64,000 nt of DNA, taken from NCBI RefSeq assembly GCF_004349065.1, contig NZ_SMKZ01000014.1, positions 1 through 64,000 of the forward strand, given 5' to 3'. The position numbers were made by a program, and so were the translations under genes. The notes beneath the pieces are model-generated. The model was not told where the DNA came from. It did not search any database and was given only the letters and a program-made list of their open reading frames with translations. The DNA is from Jiangella asiatica. Its GTDB lineage: Bacteria > Actinomycetota > Actinomycetes > Jiangellales > Jiangellaceae. This document shows positions 25,169 to 34,360 of the stretch, piece after piece; the stretch's first letter is position 1, and the number at the start of each line of letters is the position of its first letter.

Positions 25169-26305
25169 TCAGGTCGCGGGTGCTTCGTCCTCGGCGACCC
25201 GGCGCAGCCAGGTGAAGCCGGTGTTGCTGCCCTGGCAGGTCTGCAGGACGACGTCGCAGGAGTCGCCGCAGGTCCAGTTGGACGCCGAGCCGAGCGCGGA
25301 GCCGCGGCCCTGGGCGATGACGCGGTCGACCACCTCGTACAGCCCGGCGAACTCGCCTTCCAGCTCCACGTAGCTGCTCACCGGGATGGAGTTCCACCAG
25401 GAGTTGCCCAGGTAGTCGTGGGCGACCACGAAGTTGCCGGACGTGACCGGCGTGTAGTGGCAGCCGACGCCGTTGGCGAGGTTGTCGATGTCGACGTCGT
25501 CGTCGCACAGCTCGACCGGAATGGTGCGCACGTCCTCGCCGAGCGCGAGGGCATCCTCGCTGACCACCGCGCCGAACCGGCTGCCGCCGGCGTAGCTGAA
25601 GCGGAACCGCGTGGTCTCCTCGGCCGCGGCCTCGGCGACCGCGGTGCCTTCGGGGCCGGTGACCGCGGTGGCCAGCGGCACCCACTCCTCGCCGTCGGCC
25701 TGCTGCAGCTCCAGCCCGCCGACGATCGGGACGCCGCCGTCGGTGGTCCATGCCGCGGTGACGCCGACCGAGCCCTCGCCGTCGCTCTCGGCGGTGGCGG
25801 TGAGGCGGGACACCATTGGCTCGCCGGCGGTGACCACCAGCTCGGTGGACGTGACGGCTTCGAGCTCGGGTCCGCCGCCGTACGCGAGCCGGTAGATGCC
25901 CGACGACGGGACCTCGACGTCGACGCCGCCGGTGCCGCTCTCGACCGGCACCGTCGTGACCGTCGTCCACGCGTTGCCCTCGATGCGCTGCAGGTCGACC
26001 TCGCCGCTGACGGGGTCGCCGTCGGGCGTAGTCCACCGCACGCCGAAGGTGACCGAGCTGCCCGGGCGTGCCTCCGCCGGAGCACTGAGGGTCAGCGGGC
26101 CTGCGGCGGGGTCGGCGTCGGGCTCGGCGTCGATGGGGCCCGCGACCTGCTCCTCGACCGGCGATGCCGCCACCTGGACGCCAGCGTCCGTGGACCCGCC
26201 GGACTCGGTCGACGTGTCGTCGCCATCGGTGGCCCCAACGATGGCGAACACGGCGGCACCGGCGAGGGCCACCACCCCGGCCCCGGCAGTCACGCGGTAC
26301 TTCAT
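25169..26305 (-). CDS. Secreted protein with Ig-like repeats and a sortase-like C-terminal domain
   Basis: This 378-aa product has an N-terminal signal segment (KYRVTAGAGVVALAGAAVFA) and no lipobox. A Ser/Thr/Gly-rich linker is followed by two about 90-residue beta-rich segments (about 70-160 and 160-250) that look like Ig-type domains. The last about 110 residues have a sortase-like layout: a His in NFVVAHDYLG, a Cys in DVVLQTCQG and an Arg in TWLRRV, matching the His-Cys-Arg triad order, but identity to known classes is low. ATG 26305 has GGAAGATAGGA upstream. The nearby IclR gene is 60 bp upstream. The function is not assigned. Confidence 0.6.
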   Translation of the reverse strand: MKYRVTAGAGVVALAGAAVFAIVGATDGDDTSTESGGSTDAGVQVAASPVEEQVAGPIDAEPDADPAAGPLTLSAPAEARPGSSVTFGVRWTTPDGDPVSGEVDLQRIEGNAWTTVTTVPVESGTGGVDVEVPSSGIYRLAYGGGPELEAVTSTELVVTAGEPMVSRLTATAESDGEGSVGVTAAWTTDGGVPIVGGLELQQADGEEWVPLATAVTGPEGTAVAEAAAEETTRFRFSYAGGSRFGAVVSEDALALGEDVRTIPVELCDDDVDIDNLANGVGCHYTPVTSGNFVVAHDYLGNSWWNSIPVSSYVELEGEFAGLYEVVDRVIAQGRGSALGSASNWTCGDSCDVVLQTCQGSNTGFTWLRRVAEDEAPAT

Positions 26306-26365
26306 GTTCCTATCTTCCATGATCACAGGCGTGCGCCGCCGACGACCCCGCGGTCTCATGTCCAG

Positions 26366-27154
26366 TCAGACGGTCGAGGCGTGCCGTTCGTTCCACCCGC
26401 GCGGCGGGTGGGGGTGTCCCATCGACGACGAGATCTCGCGGGCGGCCTCCATCAGCGGACCGGTCGCGGCCTCCATCAGGCTCTCGTTGAACCGGGTGGA
26501 CGGCCCGGAGACGCTGATCACCGCCATCTCGGACAGGGACACGCGGATCGGAGCCGCCACGGTGTGCACGCCTCGCATGGTCTCTTCGAACGCCCACTCG
26601 TATCCCTGCTCTCGGGTGCGCTCCAGGCGCGCGAGCAGGCCGTTCAGTGTGGGCGGGTCGACGTGCGTGAACGCCGCCTCACCGACGTCGGCGGCGAACC
26701 GGATGACGTCGTCGCGGGACAGCCCGGCCAGCAGGATGCGCCCGGACGCGCCGGCCCACAGGGGGTACGGCCGGCCGAGCTCGGCCTTGACCTTCAGCCC
26801 GGACCGCGCCTCGAGCTGCTCGACGTAGATGCGCGCCGACCCCGCCCGCACCGCGAGCGCGATGGTCTCGTCGAGCTCGTCGCGCAGCCGCACCATGTAC
26901 GGCATGGCCTGCGCCCGCACGTCGATGCGCTCCAGGTAGGCCATGCCCAGCGTCAGCGTGCGCGGCCCGAGGCCGTACCGGCGGGTGTCGGAGTCCTGCC
27001 GGACCAGGCCGCTGTCCTCGAGGGACTGCAGGAGCCGCTGCGCCGTGCTCTTGGGGACGTCGGTGAGCACGCTGATCTCGCGGGCGCTCATGTCACGGCC
27101 GGCGTCGGCGAGGGCCGAAAGCACGTCGGCGGCTTTGCGCACCGACTCGTTCAC
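26366..27154 (-). CDS. IclR-family transcriptional regulator
   Basis: This 262-aa protein has an N-terminal winged helix-turn-helix (about residues 5-70, VRKAADVLSALADAG and ISVLTDVPKSTAQRLLQSLE) and a C-terminal IclR effector domain with the usual GRILLAGLS motif. The start GTG 27154 has AAGGGG 4-8 nt upstream. It follows the ABC permease gene by 46 bp and is probably co-transcribed with the importer. IclR proteins commonly sense a small acid or aromatic intermediate of the pathway they control; here the divergent dehydrogenase/enolase/lyase block is the obvious target. Confidence 0.92.
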   Translation of the reverse strand: MNESVRKAADVLSALADAGRDMSAREISVLTDVPKSTAQRLLQSLEDSGLVRQDSDTRRYGLGPRTLTLGMAYLERIDVRAQAMPYMVRLRDELDETIALAVRAGSARIYVEQLEARSGLKVKAELGRPYPLWAGASGRILLAGLSRDDVIRFAADVGEAAFTHVDPPTLNGLLARLERTREQGYEWAFEETMRGVHTVAAPIRVSLSEMAVISVSGPSTRFNESLMEAATGPLMEAAREISSSMGHPHPPRGWNERHASTV

Positions 27155-27200
27155 GCTACCCCTTCCCCGCACGGTGCCATGAGTATCGCACCGGGCCCCG

Positions 27201-28139
27201 TCACTTGCCTGCGCCCAGCGTGATGCCCTCGACGATGCGGCGGCCCAGCCAGACGTACAGCAGGAGCATCGGCAGGACGAGGATGCACACGCCGGCGAAC
27301 AGGCCGCCGTAGTCGGCGCCGGAGAACTGCATGCTCGACAGGAAGTTGAGCACCGCCAGCGACAGCGTGTACTTGTCCACGCTCTGCAGGAACACGATGC
27401 CCAGGAGGGTCTCGTTCCACATCGAGATGGCGTTGAGGATCAGCACCGTCACCAAGCCCGAGCGGGCCAGCGGCAGCATGACTTGCGCGAAGGACCGCAG
27501 CGCCGAGGCTCCGTCGATGGCCGCGGCCTCCTCGATCTCGCCCGGCAACGATCGCATGAAGCCGGTCAGGAGGAACACCGTGAACGGCACATGGGTGGCG
27601 GTGTAGAGCACGTAGAGCCCGAAGAGGCTGTTGACCAGCCCGACGTTGGACATCATCTCGAACAGCGGGATGACGGTGACCTGCGCCGGGATGCCCAGCC
27701 CGAGCGCGAAGAACAGGCTCAGCGGGCCGGCCGAGCGGTGCCGCACCCGGCTGAGCACGTAGGCGGCCGGTGCCGACACGACCAGCGTGCTCACCGACCC
27801 CGCCACGGCCAGCGCGACGGTGTTCACCGTGGCCCTGGCGAACCCGCTCTCGTTCCAGGCGTTGGACCAGTTCTCCAGGTGCAGCGAGGTCGGGAGCCCC
27901 CACGGCGCGTCGAAGATGTCCGGCGTCGACTTGACCGACGACGTGATCAGGAACAGGAAGATCAGGACGTTGAACGCGACGAACGACCACACCAGCACAC
28001 GGCCGACGACGCGGCCCGGCTCCGGCCGTCCGGTGCGGCGGCGACGGGGCACCTGGCCGGTCCCGGCGCCGCGACCGGAGCGGGGCCCGCCCCGTCCCGC
28101 GCCGCGCTCCGTCGTCAGCGTGCCCGCCTCAGAACTCAA
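27201..28139 (-). CDS. Carbohydrate ABC transporter permease (MalG type)
   Basis: This is an inner-membrane permease of 312 aa with six helices. The EAA loop that contacts the ATPase reads EIEEAAAIDGASALRSFAQV. The start is TTG at 28139, 11 bp inside the preceding permease gene, with a strong GGAGGG box 7 nt upstream; no better ATG or GTG is near. The first about 45 residues are Arg/Gly-rich and cytosolic. No ATPase gene lies in the cluster, so a shared MsiK-type ATPase encoded elsewhere is likely. Confidence 0.9.
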   Translation of the reverse strand: MSSEAGTLTTERGAGRGGPRSGRGAGTGQVPRRRRTGRPEPGRVVGRVLVWSFVAFNVLIFLFLITSSVKSTPDIFDAPWGLPTSLHLENWSNAWNESGFARATVNTVALAVAGSVSTLVVSAPAAYVLSRVRHRSAGPLSLFFALGLGIPAQVTVIPLFEMMSNVGLVNSLFGLYVLYTATHVPFTVFLLTGFMRSLPGEIEEAAAIDGASALRSFAQVMLPLARSGLVTVLILNAISMWNETLLGIVFLQSVDKYTLSLAVLNFLSSMQFSGADYGGLFAGVCILVLPMLLLYVWLGRRIVEGITLGAGK

Positions 28140-29079
28140 TGGGATCCCTCCGCATCAGGCGTCGCAGGCCGACGACGAGGAAGGCGAACAGCCCCAGCAT
28201 GAGGATCGCCGATGCCGACGCGTACCCGAACAGGTAGGACGGGCTGCGGCCGCCGAAGGACTCGCCGTACACGAACAGCGCCGAGTTCCACACTCCCGGC
28301 GGCGGCAGGTCGTTGGTCGTGCCGCCGAAGGCGTAGATGAACTCGAAGATCTTGAGTGAGCTGATGGTCCAGAAGATGGCGGCGACGGAGATCACGTCCC
28401 AGGACAGCGGCAGCGTGACGTGCCGGAGGCGTTGGAAGGCGCTCGCACCGGCCAGCTGGGCGTCGTCGTAGAAGTACTGCGGGATGCGGTCGACCCCGGC
28501 CATGATGATCGTGACGTACAGGCCGGTCGAGAGCCAGACCGTGCCGATCAGGATCATCACGAAGAGGTTGTCGGCGTTCAGCCACGGGATCGGCTCGGCG
28601 CCGAACAGCCGGTCCAGGATCGTGTTGACCACGCCGTTGTGCTGGAAGATGAACCCCCAGACGATCGACAGCACGATGGCTGACACGATGTGCGGGAAGA
28701 ACAGCACCGAGCGGACGAACGACTTCCATCGCAGCTCGCGCACGATCATGGTGAGCACGAAACTGATGACGAAGATCGCCAGCCCGGCCACGACCAGGAT
28801 CACGAGCGTGTTCACCAGCGCGGTCCGGAAGGTCGAGTCCTCGAGCAGCGCCGTGTAGTTGTCCAGCCCGGTCCACTCCATCGGCGACACGCCGTCCCAC
28901 CGGTGGAAGCTGATCCACAGCGCCGCGGCCGTCGGCCCGATGACGAAAACCAGGTGGAGCAGCAGCGCGGGGACGACGAAGGGCAGGTACAGCCGCCGGC
29001 GCGAGCGCTCGAACGCGGACATCCCGCCGGCGTGGTCGCGCCGGCGGGTGGCCGTCCCGCTCAGGGCTGCGAGGGCCAT
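28129..29079 (-). CDS. Carbohydrate ABC transporter permease (MalF type)
   Basis: This 316-aa permease has six helices and the EAA motif near FYDDAQLAGASAFQRLRHV. The start ATG 29079 shares a base with the stop of the binding-protein gene (TGATG); the first about 20 residues could be skipped if MSAFERSRRR is the true start. It pairs with the MalG-type permease downstream to form the membrane channel. The substrate is unknown, presumably a sugar or sugar-like compound processed by the divergent enzymes. Confidence 0.9.
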   Translation of the reverse strand: MALAALSGTATRRRDHAGGMSAFERSRRRLYLPFVVPALLLHLVFVIGPTAAALWISFHRWDGVSPMEWTGLDNYTALLEDSTFRTALVNTLVILVVAGLAIFVISFVLTMIVRELRWKSFVRSVLFFPHIVSAIVLSIVWGFIFQHNGVVNTILDRLFGAEPIPWLNADNLFVMILIGTVWLSTGLYVTIIMAGVDRIPQYFYDDAQLAGASAFQRLRHVTLPLSWDVISVAAIFWTISSLKIFEFIYAFGGTTNDLPPPGVWNSALFVYGESFGGRSPSYLFGYASASAILMLGLFAFLVVGLRRLMRRDPIEF

Positions 29080-30383
29080 CAGCCCTGGCTCTCCCAGTAG
29101 TCCCGTTGCTCCGACGCGATCCGTTCGATGAACTCGTCCACCGAGATCTTCCCGGTCATCAGCTCGAGGTTCAAAGGCTGGAAGATCTTGGTGTCGAAGT
29201 CGGAGTGGTCGCCGAGCACTCCGTCGGTGATCTTGCTGAGGCTCTTGCTCTGCAGCAGCTCGTTGACGTCGGCCAGCTGCGGCGGCACCTCGACGTCGGC
29301 GCGCGGGGTGAGGTTCGCGGCCTCGGTGGAGATCAGCGACAGCCGGTCCTTGTTGAGGAAGTAGGCGATGAACTCCGAGGCGGCGTCGGCGTTGTCGGCC
29401 GGCTCGGGGATCGCGAACCCGATGACGCTGGCCGGCAGCGAGTCGTCCGTGCCCAGCGTCGGGAAGTTGAACGACCGGTACTCGAACTCCGGCGCGGCGA
29501 ACTCGCCGGTCTCGGTCGGCGCCCAGCTGCCCATGTACAGGAAGTCGGCGTCGCCCTGGGCCCACTGGGTCTGGATGGCGGGGAACTTGCTGCTGTCGTA
29601 GCCGGGGATGAAGTACCCCCCGCCGGCGAGCTCCTCAATCGCCGAGAGCGCGTCCCGCACCTGCGGGGTGTCCCAGCCGGCGGCCTCTTCGTCGGAAACC
29701 AGCTCGTTGTAGCCGCCCGGCCCGAGCGCCCGGACCAGCGCCGTGGCGGTCCAGTACTCCGCGTACCCGGCGATGTCGCCGTCCAGCGCGATGCCGCTGC
29801 GCCCGGCGGACTTGGCCTCGGCCAGCAGCGCCGCGAAGTCGTCCCACGTCGCCGGCGGGCTCGCCGCGACCGCCGGCAGCGCCGCGGCGTCGTACCAGAT
29901 CGTGTAGCCGATCACCTCGTACGGCACCAGGAAGTGCTCACCGTCGTCGGTGGTGGTGAACATGTCGTACTTGTCGGTGATGGCCTCGGCGACGGTGAGG
30001 TCCTCCTCCGGGATCTCCATGTCGTACACGTCGCCGAGCGGCGTGAACTGTTCGTTCCCCACGATGGCGTTGCTGATCGTGAAGTACTGCTGGTCGATGA
30101 GGTCCGGAACGTCGCCGCCGCGCAGCGCCGCGAGCAGCTTCGTGATGTTGTCGCGGCCCTGCCACTCGACGTTGACCGTGATGCCGGTATCCGCCTCGAA
30201 CGCCTCGATCGCCTCGGCCAGCACCTGGGCCTGCGGCTCCTTCTCCTGCCACATCGACCAGTAGGTCAGCTCGTCGGAGGACCCGGACGCGGAGTCCTCC
30301 GAGCCGCACGCAGCCGCGGCGGTGACCATCATCAGGGTGAACGCGAGCGCAACCCGGCCCTCGCGACGCAGTCGGTATCGCAT
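29079..30383 (-). CDS. ABC transporter extracellular solute-binding lipoprotein
   Basis: This 434-aa family 1 (sugar-type) binding protein has a charged N-terminus, a hydrophobic core and a cysteine at TAAAACGSED, which fits a lipobox loosely. After it comes the typical mature start (LTYWSMWQEKEPQAQVLAE). It captures the ligand and hands it to the two permeases encoded downstream. The start ATG 30383 has a GAAGGGAA box about 10 nt upstream. On the minus strand a TTGACA hexamer lies at 30475-30480, about 95 bp upstream of the ATG, with a weak -10. Confidence 0.9.
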   Translation of the reverse strand: MRYRLRREGRVALAFTLMMVTAAAACGSEDSASGSSDELTYWSMWQEKEPQAQVLAEAIEAFEADTGITVNVEWQGRDNITKLLAALRGGDVPDLIDQQYFTISNAIVGNEQFTPLGDVYDMEIPEEDLTVAEAITDKYDMFTTTDDGEHFLVPYEVIGYTIWYDAAALPAVAASPPATWDDFAALLAEAKSAGRSGIALDGDIAGYAEYWTATALVRALGPGGYNELVSDEEAAGWDTPQVRDALSAIEELAGGGYFIPGYDSSKFPAIQTQWAQGDADFLYMGSWAPTETGEFAAPEFEYRSFNFPTLGTDDSLPASVIGFAIPEPADNADAASEFIAYFLNKDRLSLISTEAANLTPRADVEVPPQLADVNELLQSKSLSKITDGVLGDHSDFDTKIFQPLNLELMTGKISVDEFIERIASEQRDYWESQG

Positions 30384-30527
30384 AGGAACTGGGTTCCCTT
30401 CGTCGTGTCCTGAAGAATGGGACAGTAGACCAGTTTCTGTTCAGCACCGCACGCTATGGGCTCCGGACGAGCACTGTCAACGGGGTCTTTCCGCTGTTTT
30501 CGCCCTGTTCACCCCGCCGCTACGCCA

Positions 30528-30580
30528 TTGACGCCAGCCAGCGCCACGCTAGAGTGGGGCGCTGTCCTACTCAGTGGGAC
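30528..30580 (+). promoter_or_regulatory. Promoter and operator candidate for the SDR-enolase-creatininase-lyase operon
   Basis: TTGACG (30528-30533) and TAGAGT (30550-30555) are spaced 16 bp, a good sigma-70-type promoter. Right at the expected start of transcription lies the imperfect palindrome GTCCTACT-C-AGTGGGAC (30564-30580; 7 of 8 arm positions pair). The position suggests a repressor site, most simply for the IclR protein of this locus. Confidence 0.55.
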
Positions 30581-30610
30581 GAGATGGACTCTGACGGATC
30601 GAGGGCGCCC

Positions 30611-31480
30611 GTGATCGAACGCGAAGCTCCGCCACCTGGCGGTGAGCTGGCCGGCCAGACGGTGCTCGTCACCGGCGCGACGGGCCCGGCCATCGCCTCC
30701 GGGCTGTGCGACGCGATCCACGCGGCCGGCGCGCGGCTGGTCGTCAACGGCCCGACCGACGACGAGGTGCGTGCCACCGTCGCGCGCTACCCCGGCGCCG
30801 TCGGCGTGGCCGGCGACGTGTCGCGCCCGGCCGAGGTCGAGCGGATGTTCGCCGCGGCCACCGAGCTCGCCGGGCCGCTGACCGGTCTGGTCAACAACGC
30901 CGGCATCGGGCTCGTCGCACACCTGACCGACGTCACCGACGACCAGTTCGACCACGTGGTCGGCACCGACTTCCGCGGCGTGTGGCTGGTCAGCCGCGAG
31001 TTCGCCCGGGCCGTCCTGGCGCGCGGCGGCACGGGCGCCGTCGTCAACGTCTCGTCGGTCCACGCGGCCAGGACGATCGGCGGGTACGGCGTCTACGCGG
31101 CCGCCAAGGCCGGGGTGGAGGGTCTGACCCGCGGCTTCGCGGTGGATCTCGGCCCGGCCGGAGTGCGGTGCAACGCCGTCGCCCCCGGGTACGTGCCGGC
31201 CGACCGCGACCTGGCACCGCCGGACCATCCGGTGCACGACACCTCGTGGATCGACGCGCACACCACGACCGAGCAGGCGCTGCACCGCGTCATCGAGCCC
31301 ATCGACCTCGGCTGGGCCGCTGTCTTCCTGCTCTCCGACCGCAGCCGGTGCATCACCGGCCAGGTGCTCACCGTCGACGCGGGGCTCACCGCCCTGCTCT
31401 ACAACGCCGACATGGCCACCCGCATCCATGCCGACCGGCGGCGGCGTGCGCGGGCGGCGGAGGGGAACCGCACGTCGTGA
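30611..31480 (+). CDS. SDR-family oxidoreductase
   Basis: This 289-aa short-chain dehydrogenase opens a four-gene catabolic operon. The catalytic Ser lies in VNVSSVHA and the Tyr-Lys pair in YGVYAAAKAG; NNAGIG is also present. The nucleotide-binding loop is unusual: TGATGPAIASG lacks the expected later glycines of TGxxxGxG. I chose GTG 30611 with GAGGG 5 nt upstream; ATG 30584 is an alternative. It likely oxidises a hydroxyl of the imported sugar or polyol. The stop overlaps the next gene as GTGA. Confidence 0.88.
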   Translation: MIEREAPPPGGELAGQTVLVTGATGPAIASGLCDAIHAAGARLVVNGPTDDEVRATVARYPGAVGVAGDVSRPAEVERMFAAATELAGPLTGLVNNAGIGLVAHLTDVTDDQFDHVVGTDFRGVWLVSREFARAVLARGGTGAVVNVSSVHAARTIGGYGVYAAAKAGVEGLTRGFAVDLGPAGVRCNAVAPGYVPADRDLAPPDHPVHDTSWIDAHTTTEQALHRVIEPIDLGWAAVFLLSDRSRCITGQVLTVDAGLTALLYNADMATRIHADRRRRARAAEGNRTS

Positions 31481-32625
31481 CCAGACCCAGCCGGATCGAA
31501 CGGATCCGCGCGACCGAGGTGGTCGTCCCGGCGCTCCCGGGCGCGGTGGACTCGCCGTCGTTGAACCGCCCGCTGCACAACAAGCCGTGGAGGGGCGCGA
31601 GCAGCTGGTCCGTGCAGTTCGACCGGATGCCCAAGGTGATCCTCGAGCTGGAGCTGCGCGACGGGACGGTCGGGCTCGGCGAGCTGTACCGGGCGCACGA
31701 CTGGGAGGTCGTCGACGCCGTCGCCGCCGCGCTCGTGGGCCAGGACGTGCGGGCGATGAGCCTGCAGGAGCCGCCCGTGGCGCGAACCCACGAGTTCGAC
31801 GGCTTCGAGATGGCGCTGTGGGACGCCTACGCGCGCTCGGCCGGCCTGCGCGTCGTCGACCTGCTCGGCGGGCCGGTCCGCGACCGGATCCCCGTCAGCG
31901 CGTGGTCCAGCCACCGCACCGTCGACGAGATCGGCGACATCGTCGCGCCGTTCGCCGCAGCCGGGTTCACGAACGTGAAGCTCAAGTGCTCCCTCGACGA
32001 CGACGTCGTGGCGTGGTGCCAGGCGATCGCCGAGCGGGCGCCGGGGATGTCGGTGGTGCTCGACCCGAACGGTCGCTTCGAACGGCTCGCCGACGCCCGC
32101 GCACTCGGCCTGTCACTTGCCGAGGTCGGCAACGTCGGCTGCCTGGAGGACCCGCTGCCGCACTGGGCGGTGGACGACTGGGTCGAGCTGCGCCGCGCGG
32201 TTCCGATCCCGCTGGCCCGGCACCTGTCGCTGGCCTACCCGCAGTTCGCCGACCGGGGCAGCGAGCTGGTCGCCGTCCTGCGCCGGGGCAGCGCGGACAT
32301 GCTGAACCTCACCGCGGGGCTGAACGACTTCCGCCGCCTCGACCACGTGGCCGACGTGTTCAACCTGACGACGTGGCACGGCTCGCAGGTCGACCTCGGC
32401 ATCGCGGAGGCCGCCTACCTGCACTCCTGCGCCGCCGCCCGAACGTGCACGCAGCCCAGCGACGTCTTCGGCCGGCTGATCCGCTGCCACGACCTGCTGC
32501 GCGAGCCGCTGCGCATCGAGCCTCCGTACGCCCACCTGCCGGACGGACCGGGCCTCGGCGTGAGCCTCGACGAGGAAGCGCGCGCGGAGTTCCGCACCGC
32601 TGAAAGGGAGTACGTGGCGCGATGA
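31477..32625 (+). CDS. Enolase-superfamily protein (mandelate racemase/dehydratase type) with altered metal site
   Basis: This 382-aa product has an N-terminal capping domain and a C-terminal barrel. The barrel shows a KLK lysine motif (VKLKCSLDDD), the first metal ligand in VLDPNGRF and the second in GCLEDPLP. At the place of the third ligand, usually an Asp or Glu after a hydrophobic strand, the sequence reads PLARHLSLAY, with no acid but a His. A later His lies in TTWHGSQVD. A sugar-acid dehydratase is the likeliest role. It is not obviously MenC despite the nearby men genes. GTG 31477 overlaps the SDR stop. Confidence 0.82.
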   Translation: MTRPSRIERIRATEVVVPALPGAVDSPSLNRPLHNKPWRGASSWSVQFDRMPKVILELELRDGTVGLGELYRAHDWEVVDAVAAALVGQDVRAMSLQEPPVARTHEFDGFEMALWDAYARSAGLRVVDLLGGPVRDRIPVSAWSSHRTVDEIGDIVAPFAAAGFTNVKLKCSLDDDVVAWCQAIAERAPGMSVVLDPNGRFERLADARALGLSLAEVGNVGCLEDPLPHWAVDDWVELRRAVPIPLARHLSLAYPQFADRGSELVAVLRRGSADMLNLTAGLNDFRRLDHVADVFNLTTWHGSQVDLGIAEAAYLHSCAAARTCTQPSDVFGRLIRCHDLLREPLRIEPPYAHLPDGPGLGVSLDEEARAEFRTAEREYVAR

Positions 32626-32632
32626 GGAACCC

Positions 32633-33391
32633 ATGACCTACTGGGAACACCTGACCTCCACCCGGCTCGGGACCATCGAACGGTCGCTGCCGGTAGTGCT
32701 GCCGATGGGAGCGATCGAGCAGCACGGGCCGCACCTGCCGCTGGCGACCGACCGCATGATCGTCGATCACTTCTGCCGGGAGCTCGACCGCCGGCTGGGC
32801 GACGACGTGCTGATCCTGCCGACCATCTCCGTCGGATACTCCCGCCACCACGACGACTTTCCGGGCACGCTGTCCCTCAGCCACGAGACGCTGCTGAACC
32901 AGATCGTGGAGACCGCCGACTCCGCGCTGGAGGTGGGCATGTCCAACCTGCTCATCCTCAACGCGCACGGCGGCAACGAGGGCATCGGCCAGGTGGCGCT
33001 GGAGCGCATCGGGCACCGCTGGCCCGACCGCACCATCGTCCGCACCACGTGGTGGCAGGTCGCCGCCGAGGCGCTGCTCGAGCTGAGCACCACCGGACCG
33101 GGCGGGGTCGGCCACGCCTGCGAGCTGGAGACCTCGCTGCTGCTGGAGATCGCCGCATCGCTTGTCGACACCGATGCCATCCCGGCCCGCCAGAACACCA
33201 GTGCGTTCAGCTGGGACGTCTCGGACATGCTGCGCGGCGCGCCGGCCGTCGTCTACCGGCGGTTCGCCGACGTGTCGCCGACCGGCGTGTTCGGCGACCC
33301 CCGCGCGGCCACCGCGGAGAAGGGCCGGCGGATCAGCGAAGTCGTGTCGGCGCGGCTGGTCGCCCTCGTCCGCTCGCTGCGGGAGGGGTGA
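32633..33391 (+). CDS. Creatininase-family amidohydrolase
   Basis: This 252-aa metal-dependent hydrolase carries the family motifs GAIEQHGPHLPLATD (metal ligands Glu, His, Asp), LNAHGGNEG and GHACELETS. Members hydrolyse cyclic amides such as creatinine, or C-C bonds in cyclic keto-polyols such as 3-dehydro-scyllo-inosose. In this operon, following a dehydrogenase and a dehydratase-like enzyme, ring opening of a cyclic ketone, lactone or lactam is a fair inference. The start ATG 32633 lies 7 nt after the enolase-family gene. Confidence 0.88.
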   Translation: MTYWEHLTSTRLGTIERSLPVVLPMGAIEQHGPHLPLATDRMIVDHFCRELDRRLGDDVLILPTISVGYSRHHDDFPGTLSLSHETLLNQIVETADSALEVGMSNLLILNAHGGNEGIGQVALERIGHRWPDRTIVRTTWWQVAAEALLELSTTGPGGVGHACELETSLLLEIAASLVDTDAIPARQNTSAFSWDVSDMLRGAPAVVYRRFADVSPTGVFGDPRAATAEKGRRISEVVSARLVALVRSLREG

Positions 33392-33397
33392 CGAGCG

Positions 33398-34360
33398 ATG
33401 ACGGCGGCAGGCAGCGGCGACGACGACCGGTTCCGCGGGGTGTGCCCGGTGCTCGAGGTGCCGTTCACGCCGGCGGGCGACGTGGACCAGGCCGGCTTCG
33501 CCCGGGTCGTCGACCACGTGCTCGGCACCGGCGTCACCGCGGTGATGTTCCCCGGCTTCGCCTCGGAGTTTCACAAGCTCGACGACGCCGAACGGGACCT
33601 GCTGGCCCGGATCCTGCTGGAGCGCACGTCCGGGCTCGACGTCGCGGCGATCGTGTCGGTGCCCGACCACGCCACGACGATCGCCGTCCGGCGGGCCAGG
33701 TCCGCCGTCGATGCCGGGGCCGACGCGGTCAACATCCTGCCGCCGTCGTTCCTTTCCCCGCCGGGTAACAAGGTGCTTGCCCACGTCGAGGCCGTCCTCG
33801 ACGCCGTCGCCGGGACCACCGCGATCCTGCAGTACGCGCCGGCGCAGACCGGCACCGTGCTGAGCCCGGAGGCGATCCGCGGCCTGGCGCGGGCACACCA
33901 GAACCTGCGGCTGGTCAAGGTGGAGGCGGTGCCGCCGGGCCCGGTGGTGAGCGCCCTGCTCGACGGCGAGCCATCGCTGTCGTGCCTGGTCGGCTACGCG
34001 GGCGTCCAGCTCCCGGACGCGCTGCGCCGCGGCGCCGCCGGCGTTCAGCCCGGCTGCTCCTTCGTCGAGCTGTACGTACGGGTCTGGGACCTCTGGGAGT
34101 CCGGCCGGGTCGACGAGGCGCTCGGCCTGCACGGGCGGATGCTCCCGTACCTCGCGTACTGGATGCAGGGCGTGGAGCTCATCGTCCAGGCGGAGAAGAC
34201 GATCTCACAGCGCCGCGGCCTCATCGATCACGACGTGTGCCGGGCGCCCGGACGCCCGCTCGACGCCCACGAGACAGCCATGGTTGATCGCTTCCTCGAG
34301 GAGTTCCACGACCTGCTGCCAACACCCGTTGGCAGAACAGGTACCCCTGACAACAAGTGA
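33398..34360 (+). CDS. DHDPS/NAL-family aldolase or dehydratase
   Basis: This 320-aa class I lyase of the dihydrodipicolinate synthase family has the Schiff-base Lys in LRLVKVEAVPP and the helper Tyr in AILQYAPAQ. The substrate-carboxylate loop differs from DHDPS: GFASEFHKLD replaces the GTTGE motif, so lysine biosynthesis is unlikely. It would cleave or dehydrate a 2-keto acid produced by the preceding enzymes to give pyruvate or a semialdehyde. It begins at ATG 33398, 6 nt after the creatininase-family gene, and is the last enzyme of the operon. Confidence 0.88.
   Translation: MTAAGSGDDDRFRGVCPVLEVPFTPAGDVDQAGFARVVDHVLGTGVTAVMFPGFASEFHKLDDAERDLLARILLERTSGLDVAAIVSVPDHATTIAVRRARSAVDAGADAVNILPPSFLSPPGNKVLAHVEAVLDAVAGTTAILQYAPAQTGTVLSPEAIRGLARAHQNLRLVKVEAVPPGPVVSALLDGEPSLSCLVGYAGVQLPDALRRGAAGVQPGCSFVELYVRVWDLWESGRVDEALGLHGRMLPYLAYWMQGVELIVQAEKTISQRRGLIDHDVCRAPGRPLDAHETAMVDRFLEEFHDLLPTPVGRTGTPDNK

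Follow-up and report, generated by a model that had tools for sequence, protein, structure and literature searches.

The described systems closest to the locus studied here are the ong pathway and the Weimberg pentose pathway. In the ong pathway of Pseudoalteromonas prydzensis ACAM 620, the consulted sections of PMC9537276 and PMC12017989 describe the conversion of the oxidised amino sugar GlcNAc1A to 2-keto-3-deoxygluconate (KDG) through the deacetylase OngB and the pyridoxal-phosphate (PLP)-dependent deaminase OngC, together with a KDG kinase. RidA is essential in this pathway, and its role there is called unknown in the same sections of PMC9537276. We analysed a stretch of 64,000 nucleotides (contig NZ_SMKZ01000014.1, hereafter the window) from Jiangella asiatica, whose genome (G000) comprises 7.03 Mb in 134 contigs. 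At 26366-34360, an operon on the minus strand encoding an importer and an IclR-family regulator diverges from an operon on the plus strand that encodes a short-chain dehydrogenase/reductase (SDR), an enolase-superfamily (MLE-type) protein (MLE), a creatininase-family protein (CRE) and a protein of the dihydrodipicolinate synthase (DHDPS) family. This operon is real and looks catabolic. Quite possibly, it serves to degrade a 2-acetamido (N-acyl) sugar, for instance N-acetylglucosamine (GlcNAc) or N-acetylmuramic acid (MurNAc), by an import-coupled, oxidative and non-phosphorylated route. The features of the plus-strand operon are as follows.

30611..31480 (open frame 30554-31480), plus strand: SDR dehydrogenase (PF13561, 1.6e-52)
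31477..32625, plus strand: enolase-superfamily (MLE-type) enzyme (PF13378, 7.4e-27; PF02746, 5.2e-7)
32626..32632, plus strand: MLE-CRE junction of 7 bp, the place of an intact RidA gene in the congener G006 (L026 11472-11877) or of an N-domain-RidA fusion elsewhere
32633..33391, plus strand: creatininase-family amidohydrolase, proposed N-deacylase (rival: lactonase) (PF02633, 1.2e-63)
33398..34360, plus strand: DHDPS-family Schiff-base enzyme of the 2-keto-3-deoxy-aldonate dehydratase type (PF00701, 2.7e-23; Q145, K174, E176)

The SDR and MLE genes overlap by 4 bp, and gaps of 7 and 6 bp separate MLE from CRE and CRE from DHDPS. The spacer between the two divergent operons measures about 170-230 bp, varying with the SDR start chosen; GTG at 30611 is the likelier start because the similarity of relatives begins near 30605-30645. 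In the nucleotide-binding motif, which reads TGATGPAIASG in the window and TGGTGPAIASG in G006 (L026 9482-10315), the SDR has Ala where Nonomuraea and Embleya have Gly. The aligned proteins of the four genes are 78-88% identical between the window and G006, and the differences at codon positions 1/2/3 amounted to 32/35/93 for SDR, 25/23/108 for MLE, 20/13/56 for CRE and 52/34/105 for DHDPS. This excess at third positions in all four genes is the pattern expected for real genes. Pfam (PF13561, PF13378/PF02746, PF02633 and PF00701) located the four families where a preliminary description of this DNA had placed them, and the divergent importer and regulator that it reported are likewise present, as a solute-binding lipoprotein (SBP), two permeases and IclR on the minus strand. 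The same description knew of no pathway combining these four families, and none of the papers listed in the literature searched, a limited collection, describes the set.

The gene content, the gene order and the RidA gene in the G006 operon were observed directly, and from these we infer each of the following reactions. The ABC importer would bring the sugar into the cell, where the SDR would oxidise C1 to yield a lactone or aldonate, that is, an N-acyl-alpha-amino acid. MLE would take the C2 proton (K168/K170, with a metal) and expel the group at C3, giving a dehydro-amino acid from which CRE would remove the acyl group. The resulting enamine or imine would be hydrolysed by RidA to a 2-keto-3-deoxy acid and ammonia, a step that in the window, where RidA seems to be lost, is perhaps covered by another Rid-like gene. 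Finally, the DHDPS-family enzyme would process the 2-keto-3-deoxy acid, with dehydration a more probable reaction than aldol cleavage; in its stead, the Embleya cluster has a KDG-kinase-like gene.

Compared with the ong pathway, as far as the consulted sections describe it, the proposed route would share an unphosphorylated oxidised amino sugar, hydrolysis of an amide, loss of ammonia with RidA, and KDG, to which the KDG-kinase-like gene of Embleya corresponds. The rhizobial clusters considered below resemble it further in having a hexosaminidase and a MurR/RpiR regulator and, in two of four cases, a PLP enzyme. In contrast to ong, MLE and CRE stand in place of OngC (PLP) and OngB (D-aminoacylase type), and an SDR precedes them; IclR lies beside the importer, which is of the ABC and not the sodium-solute symporter (SSS) type, the last enzyme belongs to the DHDPS family, and the window has no RidA. 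Neither an OngB-type D-aminoacylase nor an OngC-type PLP deaminase was found among the genes of 26366-34360.

With regard to RidA, G006 carries an intact gene (about 134 residues) between MLE and CRE, the product of which is 73-77% identical to the Rid half of a fusion protein in Nonomuraea. Such a fusion of an N-terminal domain (N-domain) to RidA lies between MLE and CRE in Nonomuraea (L019, L020), in Microvirga (read gene by gene in two of the three loci, L022 and L024) and in Embleya, and in a Saprospiraceae bin it directly follows MLE, with CRE on a separate contig. Loss of RidA from the window operon seems the simplest history, and the window genome has six other Rid-like matches elsewhere. 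The Rid domains contain an invariant Arg within a PVRT stretch, which we take to be the catalytic Arg of RidA. The N-domain, of about 160 residues, has no Pfam match, and among the 50 Foldseek matches listed for the fusion all concern the Rid half. In the plasmid collection the N-domain matched 239 records, mostly rhizobial, of which one covers at least 80% of the fusion. The idea that the DHDPS-family enzyme and RidA are interchangeable was dropped, since G006 has both.

Four rhizobial-type clusters were read (Pararhizobium, Qingshengfaniella, R. phaseoli and S. meliloti Ak57), and all four hold the N-domain, a separate RidA, an SDR, a MurR/RpiR regulator and an M81 metallopeptidase. A beta-N-acetylhexosaminidase/GH20 is annotated in each of the four stretches (Pfam was run on one, and the R. 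phaseoli copy lies several genes off), and two of them contain a PLP enzyme resembling D-threonine aldolase/hydroxyaspartate dehydratase. The N-domain protein of these clusters (L052-L054, L083) is annotated merely as hypothetical. The Microvirga MLE cluster shares with them RpiR (36% identity), SDR (46-49%), the N-domain (53-57%) and Rid (28-32%), indicating that MLE and CRE may occupy the place of M81 and the PLP enzyme. In the genome of Microvirga aerophila, a second CRE lies with Amidohydro_3, a D-serine-dehydratase-type PLP enzyme, IclR and Rid. Taken with the RidA partner, the amino-sugar gene company of the related clusters points to a nitrogen-containing substrate, and not a plain cyclic sugar or polyol. 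The preliminary description, to which the absence of a RidA gene between MLE and CRE was not visible, had missed both the RidA partner and this company. S. meliloti was set aside as a source of functional evidence, the pSymB record being without features for the region; the portion of PMC4961836 consulted predicts its D-galactosamine genes at other loci.

MLE belongs to the enolase superfamily, since PF02746 and PF13378 both score over their cut-offs and the KxK motif (K168/K170) and two carboxylates expected to bind the metal (D196 and E224) are present. These residues, together with H249 and H301, are invariant across nine aligned MLE sequences, the window's included, and are positioned at or near the barrel strand ends in a low-confidence AlphaFold model (mean pLDDT 65.5), which was used for strand positions only. 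Among the 50 Foldseek matches listed for this model, all have enolase-superfamily or putative-isomerase titles, with query TM-scores of 0.42-0.49. At the column of His249, a cycloisomerase has Asp and 2OQH has Asn. This column presumably holds the third ligand of the metal, a position ordinarily taken by Asp, Glu or Asn and in which His would be unusual. N-acylamino acid racemases are among the nearest solved relatives of MLE, a kinship that fits with proton abstraction from an N-acylamino acid and would be equally compatible with other enolase-superfamily functions.

CRE has the conserved residues Glu29, His31, Asp40 and His112. It shares the PF02633 family with IolN, MftE and creatininase, but falls under the curated cut-off of each. 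The IolN model (3-dehydro-scyllo-inosose hydrolase, NF041098) gave 56.9 bits against a cut-off of 245, by which an inositol route with an IolN hydrolase was discarded, and MftE of mycofactocin (TIGR03964) gave 138 bits against 172. The NCBIfam cut-offs of creatininase and ArfB were not reached either.

The DHDPS-family enzyme is not DapA (4-hydroxy-tetrahydrodipicolinate synthase), as it gave 45.5 bits against a TIGR00674 cut-off of 206.15. Nor is it a classic DHDPS or N-acetylneuraminate lyase (NAL) aldolase, since the catalytic Tyr is replaced by Gln145 and the sequence GFASEF stands at residues 53-58 where a GXXG motif would be expected. GFASEF, the loop noted earlier as differing from that of lysine-pathway enzymes, is kept in five of six aligned proteins, the sixth having GVASEF. 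The best PDB matches of the profile are L-2-keto-3-deoxyarabonate dehydratases (1.4e-35), followed by the aldolase YagE (7.9e-30). In a profile alignment to 7C0C and 3FKK, the Azospirillum L-2-keto-3-deoxyarabonate dehydratase has Q143, its catalytic Lys and E173 at the positions of Q145, K174 and E176; the roles of Q143 and E173 are given in the consulted part of PMC9795676. The window enzyme thus resembles 2-keto-3-deoxy-aldonate dehydratases in its Schiff-base Lys, in Gln for the aldolase Tyr and in Glu two residues after the Lys, but it is distant overall from the Azospirillum protein and has Tyr146 where the latter has Asp. Judged from these residues, it is more likely a dehydratase than an aldolase, and the missing Tyr together with the nearest profile match makes the previously proposed role of keto-acid lyase doubtful.

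No match to the window DHDPS at E <= 1e-5 was obtained in any of L019-L024, indicating that, as far as seen, DHDPS is part of the operon only in G000 and G006; L018 ends after CRE. Relatives with 57-60% identity, in Embleya and on two Streptomyces plasmids, adjoin IlvD-type dehydratases, and a PfkB kinase comes next in Embleya (L051) and in one Streptomyces (L059); the Embleya cluster also has a 2-keto-3-deoxy-6-phosphogluconate (KDPG) aldolase. The kinase in the MLE/CRE cluster of Embleya is 50% identical to that in its IlvD/DHDPS cluster, and for the Embleya PfkB the nearest model is KDG/KDGal kinase, where it reached 188 bits (cut-off 400). The similarity of the two kinases suggests that the two routes may converge on a KDG-type acid, and this sits uneasily with a dehydratase as the last step. 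An E. coli conjugative plasmid (L056 4179-9918) has, next to a dgo set, genes for IlvD, a 39% identical DHDPS of the same subfamily, KDGal kinase and KDPGal aldolase.

A nitrogen-free route of the Weimberg type is the chief rival and appears somewhat unlikely. Here the SDR would form a lactone that CRE opens, MLE would dehydrate the aldonate, and the DHDPS-family enzyme would dehydrate the 2-keto-3-deoxy acid to a semialdehyde that leads to 2-oxoglutarate, with RidA as an accessory. Common to the operon and the Weimberg pathway are an SDR, an enzyme that may dehydrate an aldonate and, in the DHDPS family, a Schiff-base enzyme of the 2-keto-3-deoxy-aldonate dehydratase type, and the Q145/E176 match to the arabonate enzymes argues for this route. 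The IlvD beside the Streptomyces DHDPS relative in L058 reached 826 bits with the L-arabinonate dehydratase model, under its cut-off of 882, and exceeded the cut-offs of general dihydroxy-acid dehydratase subfamilies only. A Halocatena DHDPS relative (35-36%, with the same Q and E) has as neighbours a gene of the enolase superfamily, genes of a sugar importer and one for an alpha-L-rhamnosidase. Enolase-superfamily arabinonate dehydratases are an existing family, to which the window MLE gave 41.5 bits against a cut-off of 650. However, a Weimberg-type route leaves unexplained the RidA conserved in most relatives and the hexosaminidase, PLP, NamZ and Amidohydro_3 company. The operon also lacks a known lactonase family, and we know of no lactonase in this creatininase subfamily; among the genes of 26366-34360 there is no aldehyde dehydrogenase for 2-oxoglutarate semialdehyde, the rest of the genome not having been searched. 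Moreover, related DHDPS loci with a KDG-type kinase (L051, L059) or with a kinase and a KDPG/KDPGal aldolase (L051, L056) suggest that the intermediate may have six carbons, although L058 has no kinase in the stretch viewed.

A further alternative, in which an N-acyl D-amino acid or a peptide or muropeptide fragment containing D-amino acids is broken down and the sugar-type importer is incidental, is improbable: the second Microvirga CRE, whose importer is by eye of the dipeptide type, speaks for it, but the window and Nonomuraea have a carbohydrate-type importer and Embleya a KDG-kinase-like gene. Equally hard to credit is the route of the preliminary description. It starts from a cyclic sugar, an inositol-like polyol, a lactone or a lactam, which would undergo oxidation, dehydration and ring opening before an aldolase splits the product into pyruvate and a semialdehyde. 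It is suggested by the four families, their order and the existence of IolN, a creatininase-family diketo-inositol hydrolase, as a named NCBIfam family, but Gln145 and the IolN score speak against it. Of this description, sugar-type import with oxidation, elimination and hydrolysis, probably via a 2-keto-3-deoxy acid, is supported; an ordinary pyruvate-releasing lyase as the last enzyme is not.

The MLE clade is rare and patchy. It is present in two of the 12 genomes of the genus, the window's own included (six others have only 32-35% matches), in 4 of 393 genomes of the class, in 2 of 345 of the Nonomuraea order and in 1 of 385 of the class of Microvirga, namely the genome from which that search started. 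Scanning genome contigs by pattern yielded seven MLE loci at 49-81% and one at 27%, and the plasmid collection added one further close MLE, in Embleya (58%). The identities of MLE and CRE to the window drop roughly in parallel across relatives (MLE/CRE: G006 88/88%, L018 81/73%, Nonomuraea deserti 78/75%, Embleya 58/53%, Microvirga alba 50/50%).

The minus-strand operon consists of the following genes.

29079..30383, minus strand: SBP (PF01547, 1.6e-24)
28129..29058, minus strand: second ABC permease of sugar type (coordinates exact at the 3' end, approximate at the 5' end; nearest NCBIfam GlcT, under cut-off)
27201..28139, minus strand: sugar-type ABC permease (PF00528; nearest NCBIfam GlcU, under cut-off)
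26366..27172, minus strand: IclR-family regulator, last gene of the importer operon (PF01614, 4.2e-35; PF09339, 6.4e-16)

The operon contains no ATPase gene. The second permease is 93% identical in G006 and 81-82% in Nonomuraea, and IclR relatives occupy the same position with 94% and 75-76% identity, respectively. The best NCBIfam model for the SBP is NgcE (GlcNAc/diacetylchitobiose), at 132 bits against a cut-off of 399.65, and its PDB relatives at E <= 1e-8 are three, of which the chitin-oligosaccharide protein NagB2 is the weakest. Adjoining IclR, positions 25169-26359 encode a 396-residue protein that looks secreted by eye, has no Pfam match and is 82% conserved in G006.

CRE relatives (32-40% identical) also occur on haloarchaeal plasmids, often with a gene of the enolase superfamily as well as IclR, SDR, Rid and sugar importers in the vicinity. 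CRE and MLE lie at most 20 kb apart in 28 of the 30 haloarchaeal plasmid records with both (expected 3.1), CRE and Rid are co-located in 21 of 29 (expected 2.9) and NamZ and MLE in 10 of 11 (expected 1.1), and NamZ and CRE are within 12 kb in 8 of 9. These counts, based on manually transcribed positions, take one best place per record and cover 38 of 40 CRE records (two bacterial ones dropped), all 34 MLE records (39 places), the 11 haloarchaeal of 26 NamZ records and 31 of the 60 Rid matches listed, out of 271 records. Many of the plasmids belong to close relatives and hence are not independent. A Natrononativus pair counted as apart is actually adjacent via a second MLE place. Of the 40 CRE plasmid neighbourhoods, 13 were read: MLE was in the stretch in nine, Rid in seven, and four had no MLE. 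Haloarchaeal clusters without NamZ also exist. On Haladaptatus plasmids (L067 7620-17532; L070 1302-20043), NamZ, NagZ/GH3-type and AnmK genes are clustered; NamZ and GH3 of L070 and AnmK of L067 are backed by Pfam matches, and the L070 AnmK looks fragmentary. These archaea are not known to have murein, and this set would amount to a peptidoglycan-sugar toolkit in them. In a paper on haloarchaeal glycosaminoglycan use (PMC13260240), the part consulted describes amino sugars as taking a phosphorylated route, and 'mandelate' and 'creatinin' are absent from its main text.

Several observations weigh against the breakdown of an N-acyl sugar by the window operon. The SBP falls well short of the cut-off for NgcE, and chitin-related proteins make up only part of its PDB relatives; the operon itself contains no glycosidase or other amino-sugar gene; and RidA is absent both from it and from L018, where MLE and CRE overlap by one base. 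A dehydratase-type DHDPS suits a five-carbon acid better than KDG, DHDPS relatives occur in clusters for other sugars, and no KDG kinase was found in the rhizobial stretches read. Those haloarchaeal MLEs that were aligned show 24-26% identity and have Asn in the His249 column, thus forming a different clade, so that the haloarchaeal evidence applies by analogy only. NamZ is over cut-off in 12 of 12 genomes of the genus, and MurQ-like genes reach at least 293 bits in 12 of 12 (six over the cut-off of 302); neither tracks the MLE clade (2 of 12), on which ground MurNAc was rejected as the only substrate.

A more specific version of N-acyl sugar breakdown is unlikely. In it, the His-ligand MLE would perform beta-elimination on oxidised N-acetylmuramate, releasing D-lactate, or on N-acetylglucosaminate, releasing water, followed by the CRE deacylase and RidA. 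This non-phosphorylated pathway would occur in scattered members of Actinomycetes, Alphaproteobacteria and Bacteroidota, and haloarchaeal plasmids would carry a parallel version, in some cases beside NamZ and AnmK. If right, the main reading of N-acyl sugar breakdown would provide a second, PLP-independent deamination of an amino-sugar acid, give a role to uncharacterised clades of the creatininase family and the enolase superfamily, and explain why RidA is essential in such pathways. It would also aid the annotation of haloarchaeal plasmid clusters with peptidoglycan-type hydrolases.

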